From Streptomyces tanashiensis (GTDB lineage: Bacteria > Actinomycetota > Actinomycetes > Streptomycetales > Streptomycetaceae), in contig NZ_BMRZ01000005.1 of assembly GCF_014648895.1 (NCBI RefSeq), positions 124,001 to 188,000 of the forward strand: a DNA stretch of 64,000 nucleotides, in the 5' to 3' direction. Position 1 is the stretch's first letter; each line of letters starts with the position of its first letter. This document shows positions 29,837-37,698 of this stretch, piece after piece. The notes under the pieces are model-generated. The model was not told where the DNA came from, searched no databases, and was given only the letters and a program-made list of their open reading frames with translations. A program made the translations under genes and the position numbers.

Positions 29837-30376
29837 ATGGGTTCTGTCGGTCGTAGGACCGTCGCGGTGATGGCAGCCGCTCTGGCGTCGCTGGGGGCGG
29901 GAAGCGGTGTCGCCGCGACCGCGACCCCCTCGTCGCCCACTCCGTGCAGCGGCGCGGAATGCCCCAGCCTGAAGCCGGTCAGGCTCACGACCAGCCAGGC
30001 GACTCTGAACGTCACCCAGATGCAACTGGAGAACATCCACGCGATGGCCTCCGACGCCATCACGGGGGAGCCCATCCGGGGGGCGAAGATCGTGTTCGCC
30101 ACCGTCGGTGGCCGGACGCTGGGGGCCGCCTTCACCGACTACGACGGTGTCGCCTCGATCACCGCCCCGGAGAACCTGGGTCCCGGAACCCTCCAGGAGC
30201 TGCTCGGCGGCTACGAAGCCGCGCTCGTGGGCGACGGCGTGCACGCTCCCGTCGGGGCCCACGGCGCGATCACCGTCGGTACCGACCAGGGGCCCGGGGT
30301 GCCGGGCGCGCCCTGCTCGCTCTGCAGTGACCGTGGGCTCAAGCAGGACGTGGTCCCGGTCGACTGGAGCCGGTGA
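29837..30376 (+). CDS. Secreted Ig-like protein ending in S74 Ser-Lys motif
   Basis: A 179-residue protein with a signal peptide (VAVMAAALASLGAGSGVAATA). A bacterial Ig-like (Big) domain follows, about residues 50-120: ASDAITGEPIRGAKIVFATVGG, then AFTDYDGVASITAP. The protein ends with CSDRGLKQDVVPVDWSR. SDRxLK is the Ser-Lys dyad motif that opens peptidase-S74 intramolecular-chaperone domains (here about S164 and K169), but the protein stops right after it. The rest of an S74 domain is encoded by the next gene, so the domain is split between two polypeptides. GGGAG precedes the ATG. Confidence 0.75.
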   Translation: MGSVGRRTVAVMAAALASLGAGSGVAATATPSSPTPCSGAECPSLKPVRLTTSQATLNVTQMQLENIHAMASDAITGEPIRGAKIVFATVGGRTLGAAFTDYDGVASITAPENLGPGTLQELLGGYEAALVGDGVHAPVGAHGAITVGTDQGPGVPGAPCSLCSDRGLKQDVVPVDWSR

Positions 30377-30378
30377 CG

Positions 30379-30768
30379 ATGCGGATCCGGATCCTCGGCA
30401 GGCGGGCCCGGGCGGCCGACGACGCTTCTCCGGACCCTTCCGCGGCAGGTCCACGGGACACCGTCGGCGTGGCCCCGGTCGGCGCGGTCAACGGCTTCGC
30501 CGTCCTGGATGCCGTGGCCGCGCTGCCGGTCAGCACCTGGCGCTATCTGTGGGAGCCCGAAGGCGTCCGTCACCTCGGGCCCATGGCCCAGGACTGGCAC
30601 GCCGCCTTCGGATTCAACCGGGACGACACCAGGATCCCCGTCGTCGACGGCCTCGGCGTGGCCCTGGTCTGCATCCAGGCGCTCCAACGCCACGTGGAGG
30701 AGCTCAGGGCCGAAGTCGCCATGCTGCGCGAGGCCGTGGCCACGACTCCGTCCGAGGAGGGGCGATGA
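30379..30768 (+). CDS. S74 intramolecular-chaperone domain, C-terminal half
   Basis: A 129-residue protein. After a short arginine-rich start (MRIRILGRRAR) the region AVLDAVAALPVSTWRYLWEPEGVRHLGPMAQDWHAAFGFN, then GVALVCIQALQRHVEELRAEV, matches the part of peptidase-S74 domains that normally follows SDRxLK, ending in the trimer-forming coiled coil. There is no signal peptide, while its apparent partner is secreted. GGAG lies 9 nt before the ATG at 30379; a GTG at 30373 would overlap the upstream stop. Its stop overlaps the next start (ATGA). Confidence 0.75.
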   Translation: MRIRILGRRARAADDASPDPSAAGPRDTVGVAPVGAVNGFAVLDAVAALPVSTWRYLWEPEGVRHLGPMAQDWHAAFGFNRDDTRIPVVDGLGVALVCIQALQRHVEELRAEVAMLREAVATTPSEEGR

Positions 30769-31442
30769 CGGCGCACGGTCTGTCGCCGGTGTCCACGGAT
30801 GCGATCTGGCGTCTTCCGGTAACGGTCTGCCGCATCACCGGGTTCCTGGGCGAGCGGACGGCTGGCCTCCTGCTGGAGCGTGCCATCGCCTCCACGGGTG
30901 ACCGGCTCAGGCCTTCCCTGGTCCGGGACCGGGAGCTGGCCCCCGCCCTGCGCAAGTCCCGGTCGTGCCACGACTTCCAGGCGTCTGAGCTACTGGCGGC
31001 CATCGACGACGTCCGGGAGGCAGTCGAGCACACGCTGGGAATCGACTGCCGCCACACCGAGCCCAGTTACGGTCTCAACGTGCACAATGACGGGGACTTC
31101 TACGGGCCGCACCAGGACACCAGCGCCGCGTACTCCCCCCGCCGTCTGCTCACGTTCGTCTACTACCTGCACCGCACGCCCCGGCCGTTCGGCGGCGGCG
31201 AGCTGCGCGTCTTCGACGCCGCCCTGCCGCTGCACACCGAGACGACCGGAGAGTGGGAGGAACGTACCTGGCGGGACTGGGAGCCCGAGCACGACAGCAT
31301 CGTGTTCTTCCTTCCCACCGCCTGGCACGAGGTGCGACCGGTCGTGTGCCCCGGAAGGCAGCACGAAGACAGCCGCTTCGCCGTCAACGGCTGGCTGTGC
31401 GCCCCCGACCCGACGCACCGCAGGGACGACGAGTGCCTGTGA
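30765..31442 (+). CDS. 2-oxoglutarate/Fe(II) oxygenase (prolyl-hydroxylase-like)
   Basis: A 225-residue dioxygenase. The metal triad is visible as H and D in GPHQDTSAAYSPRRLLTFVYYLH and H in FFLPTAWHEVRPV; the 2-oxoglutarate-binding Arg is likely in SRFAVNGWL. FGGGELRVFDA fits the prolyl-4-hydroxylase-like branch (2OG-FeII_Oxy). It hydroxylates a substrate while converting 2-oxoglutarate to succinate. It overlaps the S74-half gene by 4 nt (ATGA), so the three genes form one translationally coupled operon; its target may be one of the two partner proteins (inference). Confidence 0.85.
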   Translation: MTAHGLSPVSTDAIWRLPVTVCRITGFLGERTAGLLLERAIASTGDRLRPSLVRDRELAPALRKSRSCHDFQASELLAAIDDVREAVEHTLGIDCRHTEPSYGLNVHNDGDFYGPHQDTSAAYSPRRLLTFVYYLHRTPRPFGGGELRVFDAALPLHTETTGEWEERTWRDWEPEHDSIVFFLPTAWHEVRPVVCPGRQHEDSRFAVNGWLCAPDPTHRRDDECL

Positions 31443-31458
31443 GCAGCGGGCCCGAGAA

Positions 31459-31542
31459 CCACGACAAAGCCCCAGGTCGCCGACCTGGGGCTTCGTAGAA
31501 GAGCGGATGACGGGAATCGAACCCGCGCTATAAGCTTGGGAA
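31459..31542. repeat. att copy 5 (partial tRNA-Gly plus terminator)
   Basis: Terminator hairpin and tRNA-Gly 3' half, matching the functional copy at 37586-37668 over about 80 nt with only a few changes in the hairpin and none in the tRNA part; identity stops exactly after CTTGGGAA in the anticodon loop. It is the best-preserved duplicate and the boundary of modules D and E. Confidence 0.92.
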
Positions 31543-37564: not shown

Positions 37565-37585
37565 CCGGGTCGGACAGGTCTGGAC

Positions 37586-37668
37586 AACGACGAAGCCCCA
37601 GGTCGCTGACCTGGGGCTTCGTAGAAGAGCGGATGACGGGAATCGAACCCGCGCTATAAGCTTGGGAA
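37586..37668. repeat. att copy 6: tRNA-Gly 3' half plus terminator
   Basis: The reference copy of the repeat: terminator hairpin CGAAGCCCCAGGTC GCT GACCTGGGGCTTCG (about 37590-37622) and the 3' half of the functional tRNA-Gly up to the anticodon loop (37668). Five other copies lie to the left at 31459, 22218, 20528, 19548 and 18067. Confidence 0.92.
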
Positions 37669-37698
37669 GCTCATGTTCTACCATTAAACTACATCCGC
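37628..37698 (-). tRNA. tRNA-Gly (anticodon CCC)
   Basis: A complete 71-nt cloverleaf on the - strand: acceptor GCGGATG/CATCCGC with discriminator T, D arm GTTTAATGGTAGAAC, anticodon stem TGAGC/GCTTA with loop TTCCCAA (anticodon CCC), and T arm GCGGGTTCGATTCCCGT. CCA is not encoded. Its 3' half with the following terminator is the recombination target of the island on its left; the functional gene remains at the right end. Confidence 0.95.

Follow-up and report, generated by a model that had tools for sequence, protein, structure and literature searches.

Two adjacent, overlapping genes of Streptomyces tanashiensis, here called A and B, probably form a natural two-gene S74 (ICA) domain, in which protein B would take up the tails of protein A and A would be cut before a serine. 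The genes lie in a stretch of 64,000 nucleotides (the window; positions 124,001 to 188,000 of contig NZ_BMRZ01000005.1, our G000:C5) from a genome of 9.0 Mb (G000), and they are followed by a gene, C, for a 2-oxoglutarate (2OG)-Fe(II) oxygenase. S74 domains are generally regarded as acting within a single protein once it has trimerised. Here, the strand with the Ser-Lys dyad forms the end of A, while the chaperone body is encoded by B. The same division, at the same place and in two separate, tightly coupled genes, was found in 67 of 80 loci, all 67 from Actinomycetota records; these 80 are the best of 140 confirmed relatives from a scan of reference genomes with B, in which Streptomyces predominated. 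Seen directly in the sequences are the conserved split, the pairing of the genes, the kept dyad, the S74 identity of B and, at the level of clades, a match between one segment of A and the enzyme encoded next to it.

The paired genes and how widely the split is kept

Gene A (29837..30376, + strand) encodes an exported-type, immunoglobulin (Ig)-like protein of 179 amino acids, as judged from its sequence, Pfam and an AlphaFold2 model of the homologue L042. Its N-terminus is signal-peptide-like, with a basic start and a hydrophobic run (29837..29920, + strand, limits approximate), which is also seen in the hydropathy of four near-identical homologues (L015-L018). The Ig/MG-type match of window A itself is weak (bMG3, 22.8 bits, under the Pfam cut-off of 34.9); in L042, the corresponding part is modelled mostly with a predicted local distance difference test score (pLDDT) >80 and is an Ig-like beta-sandwich by structure search. 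The protein ends in the S74 dyad strand SDRGLKQDVVPVDWSR (30326..30373, + strand) with Ser164 (codon 30326-30328) and Lys169 (codon 30341-30343), and conservation together with the SDxxxK rule places the predicted cut before Ser164. The stop codon of A overlaps the first possible start of B as GTGA (30373..30376, + strand); an alternative ATG start at 30379 is suggested by the sequence and by the starts of homologues. Gene B (30379..30768, + strand, or from the GTG at 30373) encodes an S74 chaperone half of 129 amino acids, with neither the dyad strand nor a signal-like N-terminus, and its long C-terminal helix (residues 87-122; 30637..30744, + strand) is a candidate trimeric coiled coil in the AlphaFold2 model. 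An earlier note on this DNA had described three genes with an S74 dyad motif at the end of A and with GTGA and ATGA overlaps, all of which was confirmed. It had also spoken of a split dyad, and here it needs correction: Ser and Lys both lie in A, and it is the chaperone body that is split off.

The assignment of B to the S74 family rests on the profile Peptidase_S74 (PF13884), which it matches with 27.9 bits (cut-off 22) at positions 15-53 of 58. Judged by sequence, the profile positions absent from B, including the Ser-Lys dyad, correspond to the C-terminus of A. Consistently, the fused relative L081 matches positions 1-53 within one protein, with the Ser-Lys strand in the first positions, and reading A and B together raised the Pfam S74 score at all three loci where both share a frame (24.5 to 28.3, 30.0 to 38.1 and 32.8 to 35.2). 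Of the features that define an S74 member, the Ser-Lys dyad within SDxxxK is thus present in A and a family match above cut-off in B, but dyad and chaperone body do not share a polypeptide in the window or in 67 of the 80 relatives; since they are divided between two genes, the pair is a split variant and not a standard S74 member. The AlphaFold2 model of B (mean pLDDT 80) was made with a 52-row alignment (A4), a selected part of the 67 B proteins plus four fused ones. Its ten best Foldseek neighbours in the PDB are S74/ICA chains (7dc3, 3gw6, 3gud; E 0.38 or worse), and VIA-align gives Z scores of 2.9 for 7dc3, 3.5 for 3gw6, 3.8 for 4uw8 and 3.4 for 3gud. The aligned ranges (7dc3 596-705, 3gw6 923-1063) start just past the respective dyads (587/592 and 911/916), so that the two genes divide the domain at the link from the dyad strand to the chaperone body.

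Across the 67 split loci, the tail of A is strongly conserved: Ser and the Lys five residues after it are kept in 67/67, Asp in 65/67 and the Trp at tail position 14 in 63/67. Ser and Lys are the sole invariant positions among the 16 of the tail, whose length is exactly 16 residues in 61/67 loci. The passengers in front of the strand are diverse, with lengths from 28 to 286 residues (the choice of start is uncertain, notably in L030, L033 and L034), and they fall into 13 single-linkage BLAST clusters. Ig-like proteins, short signal peptides with a linker, glycine-rich hydrophobic peptides in Rhodococcus and a basic amphipathic type (L079) are represented; in the Rhodococcus loci (L086, L089, L090, L091), A has only 42-53 codons, which hold a glycine-rich, membrane-type stretch and the S74 strand. 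The extracted A proteins have 42-302 amino acids (with some start picks uncertain), those without an Ig-like part 42-197, and a hydrophobic stretch (19 residues with a mean hydropathy of at least 1.2) is present in 56/67. The fibre protein suggested in the earlier note does not agree with these sizes, nor with the single small Ig-like domain of window A, and Pfam recognised no beta-helix in the scanned A proteins. A phage-type tail fibre or tailspike was likewise rejected for the window, because 179 residues with one Ig-like beta-sandwich are not a large beta-helical trimeric passenger.

The specificity of the strand was examined with a degenerate DNA pattern in 21 chosen genomes carrying A or B. 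It occurred at 20 sites in 18 of the 21 genomes, and the reversed control gave 0. All 20 sites have a B within 600 nucleotides downstream, 19 of them behind a stop in another frame and one fused (G066); since every site is followed by a B, there is no orphan A tail among the pattern sites of these genomes. Deviating tails let two of the genomes with A-B pairs (G166, G255) escape the pattern; in G014 a tail is absent. The recurrence of the same split in 67 loci, together with this specificity, excludes chance, and by its sequence the split looks like a real two-part arrangement and not a sequencing error.

In the remaining 13 of the 80 loci, B forms one open frame with an upstream part in nine (L081-L085, L087, L092-L094; the motif of L087 deviates), one is fused but frame-broken (L080), and three could not be assigned to a type: L069, which lies at a contig edge, L078, and L088, whose Ser is gone. 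When 150 genomes of the genus were searched separately with B, 10 of them had matches, at 11 loci in all. Nine of these are split at the same place, one is fused (L012) and one is weak (L013, E 4.9e-4), with neither the strand motif nor the B core motif. As some genomes appear to be shared between this search and the reference scan, the two counts are not added. The window genome has a second, different split pair (G000:C2:598247-598576; L014, L002) with a small exported-type A of 104 amino acids and an ATGA junction, and no oxygenase gene was seen in its 3.1 kb locus. Plasmids carry three more split pairs (L139, L140, L143); two of these records, titled complete sequence, annotate two genes (hypothetical protein and tail fiber domain-containing protein), and the third record carries no annotation. 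In a fourth pair, on a plasmid of Rhodococcus opacus (L141), A has 29 codons and is itself not annotated. Nevertheless, the split arrangement is uncommon: in a phylum-wide sample of 396 genomes, B matched in 6, the window genome included. Within this sample, L145 and L147 have split A tails by eye (L148 and L149 were left out). In another actinobacterium (L146), a B-like gene stands alone, with no A tail directly upstream.

Outside cellular genomes, 14 relatives on viral contigs each form one open frame with an upstream part; by eye, 12 of them carry SDxxxK, and two (L125, L128) carry CDxxxK, with Cys at the expected S74 Ser. The 14 phage records gave partial matches only, covering at most 57% of B, and a comparison with phage protein families gave weak to moderate matches of B to two virion or tail families (E 1.1e-6 and 0.0023). 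In three Streptomyces proteins of about 710-750 codons (L012, L081, L142), a fused S74 domain of the same actinobacterial type forms the C-terminus; L081 and L142 have TPR repeats by Pfam.

Proposed assembly and cleavage

From this arrangement we infer a complex, a cut, a place of assembly and a modification. Protein A would consist of a variable N-terminal passenger with the Ser-Lys strand at its very end. B would be translated from the same message, coupled at the overlapping stop and start, and would carry the ring-forming strands, the collar helices and the coiled coil; gene order and conservation make it most likely that A and B are made together. B might then fold on the tail of A, trimerise and bind three A chains by their tails, holding them so that A would be cut before Ser, leaving a mature A that ends in ...PCSLC and a short tail peptide that stays with B. 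An export-type N-terminus is present in A and absent from B, so we place assembly tentatively in the cytoplasm, ahead of export or while it proceeds; the passenger would be exported afterwards. In the clade of the window, C might hydroxylate the segment before the cut, probably at proline and ahead of cleavage.

The known comparators are the S74/ICA domains of phage endosialidase (3gw6), the T5 L-shaped tail fibre (4uw8), Bdellovibrio MAT fibres and human MyRF (7dc3). As in these, an SDxxxK strand precedes a chaperone body, predicted as helix, strands and long C-terminal helix, with a predicted cut before Ser. In contrast to them, where one chain acts intramolecularly behind beta-helical stalks or fibres, strand and body are here two proteins, the linker is long, and the passenger is a single Ig-like domain or a small peptide of exported or membrane type. 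The passages available for MyRF describe the cut strand as a cable from a neighbouring subunit that is threaded through the ring, and report that cleavage is absent in S587A or K592A (PMC8326128); the SDxxxK rule for the dyad is given in a comparable passage (PMC10769870). Since the strand of MyRF comes from a neighbouring subunit, a body in a separate chain would be mechanically reasonable, and a chaperone half that acts on a separate chain seems the natural reading.

The sources available in part present S74 within single proteins (PMC8326128, PMC12923769, PMC10769870, PMC7824862), and among the matches listed from the open-licence literature, in the parts available, no description of a split S74 domain was found. 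The nearest published hint concerns S74 genes in operons of extracellular contractile injection systems, which may work with an unknown tail-fibre analogue (PMC8213781) and are likewise bacterial S74 genes outside a recognised tail fibre; in the available part of that source, however, neither a split domain nor a partner gene is described. No shared cluster indicating a contractile injection system or a phage neighbourhood was found around the 80 loci: when open reading frames of at least 60 amino acids in flanks of up to 6 kb were clustered, no cluster besides A, B, C and frames antisense to B occurred in more than 4 of the 80. The Streptomyces TPR-S74 fusions have the same actinobacterial type of S74 domain (L081 and L142 pass the Pfam cut-off for S74), and in L012 and L142 the linker is comparably long, but they are uninterrupted proteins in which the domain follows TPR repeats and not an Ig-like or signal-bearing passenger.

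Several observations weigh against the proposed complex and cut. With B lacking an export-type N-terminus and 56/67 A proteins carrying a hydrophobic stretch, the place of assembly is a real difficulty. The Foldseek matches of B are individually weak, unrelated chains reach VIA-align Z scores of 3.0-3.5 against B, similar to the S74 rows, and a profile of B searched against PDB sequences found no S74 entry at a significant E (the best relevant entry was 8hqz, E 0.037). When both halves were modelled together, as the earlier note had proposed, by running A of L042 through its stop into B as a single chain (AlphaFold2, 63-row alignment A2), the dyad tail was not docked on B and had a pLDDT <50, so that the A-B complex is without support from modelling. 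Finally, Shine-Dalgarno-like motifs upstream of B are present at 39/67 loci by a loose rule and are not universal.

The two halves could also assemble without any cut, with B as a dedicated holding chaperone and the Ser-Lys strand as its docking tag. This would suit the observations that every A sits with a B in the 21 chosen genomes, and that several passengers consist of hardly more than a hydrophobic stretch, so that little would be gained by releasing them. However, a docking tag need not keep both Ser and Lys, which are the only tail positions kept throughout, and it is these same two residues that abolish the cleavage of MyRF when changed to Ala, according to the part of that source available (PMC8326128). 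We therefore consider assembly without cleavage unlikely and favour a cut before Ser.

The junction between A and B

What is conserved at the junction can be read from its variation. Within -14 to +11 nucleotides of the A stop, a B-frame ATG, GTG or TTG is present at 67/67 split loci, most commonly at -1 (38 loci), +5 (15) or -10 (5); since B starts in homologues were picked by their nearness to the A stop, the exact start sites are predictions. B lies in the -1 frame relative to A in 60 loci, in the same frame in 3 and in the +1 frame in 4, and the stop codon of A may be TGA, TAG or TAA. As the frames differ and the stop codon varies, it is the stop itself that is conserved, and with a B start kept nearby, termination after the strand and a fresh start of B are the conserved features. 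In L079, two tandem A genes of 52 codons, each with a basic amphipathic start and an S74 tail, precede one B; L145 is a further example.

These features bear on programmed ribosomal frameshifting, by which A and B would be joined so that some A would carry an ordinary, self-cutting single-chain S74 domain. The prevalence of the -1 frame (60/67) would be expected under such a mechanism, and fused forms do occur in Streptomyces (L081, L012 and, on a plasmid, L142). However, an XXXYYYZ slippery heptamer in the -1 register was found within 48 nucleotides of the A stop at 0/67 loci (other kinds of shift sites were not searched), B shares the frame of A, behind a stop, at three loci and is in the +1 frame at four, a B-frame start lies near the stop at every locus, and L079 has two A genes before one B. 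The three relative frames and the lack of an in-register slippery site argue against both an error and programmed frameshifting, and we regard the latter as very improbable. That A and B are the decaying or misassembled remnant of a once fused gene, through a frameshift error or as a pseudogene, is hardly credible, as only L080 (resembling a frame-broken fused gene) and L088 (without Ser) point that way, but 67 loci from many genera show the same split, with conservation of both sides and a start near the stop, and plasmid records annotate A and B as two genes. A sequencing error or a single broken gene is ruled out by the conserved split. The earlier note had left room for a simple frameshift error, or for homologues that always form one uninterrupted protein; with 67 of 80 relatives split and two genes annotated in two plasmid records, the split is genuine on both counts.

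The oxygenase gene, the segment before the cut and implications

Gene C (30765..31442, + strand), whose ATG at 30765 overlaps the B stop as ATGA, encodes a prolyl-4-hydroxylase-like 2OG-Fe(II) oxygenase of 225 amino acids, as identified by Pfam (2OG-FeII_Oxy_3, PF13640; 63.9 bits, cut-off 27) and by its residues HQD 116-118, WHE 187-189 (His188) and Arg204. This HxD...H...Arg arrangement is the metal- and 2OG-binding pattern of such enzymes. C thus shares fold family and residues with the prolyl-4-hydroxylase-type oxygenases, but differs from those compared in that it is encoded with an S74 pair and matches PDB sequences only weakly (nearest 4iw3/4j25, E 0.0025, and 6t8m, E 0.0047). In a library of defence systems, A and B had no match and C matched generic 2OG models only (PDLC01653, 62.3 bits, and PDLC01587).

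The candidate substrate of C is the segment TDQGPGVPGAPCSLC (30281..30325, + strand) directly before the predicted cut, which is found in A-B loci with C and not in Ig-type A without C. Among the 29 Ig-type loci, 23 have TDQ(G/A)PG(V/L)PxxPCxxC (first residue T or I) directly before Ser. C follows B in 23 of the 80 loci, all with an Ig-type A, and is present in 23/23 Ig-type loci with the segment and in 0/6 without it (one of these, L031, ends at a contig edge). Three further loci without the segment (L161-L163) have no C in 1.5 kb from the A start. In two loci (L041, L042), a glycosyltransferase and a small protein stand after B in place of C, and the segment reads TDC..TPP; L042 has a GT2 and a GT25 by Pfam, the small protein is PqqD-like by eye only (Pfam found nothing for that of L042), and L163 has a similar glycosyltransferase start by eye. 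When segment and tail are left out, a tree of A groups the C loci into one clade (94/94) and those with the glycosyltransferase into another (96/97). The coupling to a hydroxylase that the earlier note had seen therefore holds for the 23 loci, but it is confined to one clade of the A tree and is not a property of the whole system.

C could be a mere neighbour that acts on another substrate. More distant relatives of C (L105-L108, 53-63% identity) have no A-B pair in the upstream 1.3-1.5 kb, and as all C-bearing loci lie in one clade of the A tree, the linkage may be inherited. On the other hand, the segment and C are present or absent together in the Ig-type loci (23/23 against 0/6) and jointly missing in L161-L163, and at one locus (L104, which coincides with L160), B and the tail are gone, yet the segment persists together with an open C frame. 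Its A ends in ...PNSPCAVC-stop, exactly at the predicted cut, a single case that may be chance. With C as query, 30 of 392 genomes of the genus had a match at E 1e-10 or better; of the 11 C loci with at least 79% identity, nine, the window included, have an A-B pair with the segment directly upstream, and the other two are L104 and one at a contig edge (L109). Three points count against a link between C and the segment: the match rests on about one gain per clade in the A tree; L028 and L031, which have neither segment nor C, are placed within the C group by the B tree, which has few columns; and in that tree the starred branches force at least two changes, so that the C loci are not one clade. 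Judging from the sequences, either segment and C were lost together in L028 and L031, or A and B have different histories. Because the agreement between segment and enzyme is one of clades and reflects few independent events, an enzyme-substrate link is supported, not proven, and an unrelated role of C is a serious possibility, to which we give somewhat less weight than to the link.

Consensus scans found neither promoter nor terminator. Directly downstream of C lies the first copy of an 85-nucleotide direct repeat (31458-31542), 96% identical to a second copy at 37584-37668; the two bound about 6 kb. The second copy overlaps the 3' part of a tRNA-Gly gene (37627-37698, minus strand), and the first therefore looks like the remnant of an attachment site.

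A more general proposal, which we put forward only tentatively and would at present rather doubt than assume, is that Actinomycetota possess a general, modular maturation device in which a dedicated S74 chaperone-protease, B, acts in trans as a trimer and trims a large variety of unrelated small peptides A, exported or of membrane type, that carry the 16-residue tag, and that some clades first modify the new C-terminus by a hydroxylase or glycosyltransferase, which would give an undescribed class of modified secreted products. If the two-gene reading is true, the natural split would allow recognition and cleavage in trans to be tested with two small proteins, and the tail of A would be a defined processing tag of 16 residues. 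The finding also draws attention to families of small exported peptides in actinobacteria, some of whose genes are linked to one for a hydroxylase or glycosyltransferase; in two annotated plasmid examples, these peptides appear as a hypothetical protein beside a 'tail fiber domain-containing protein'.

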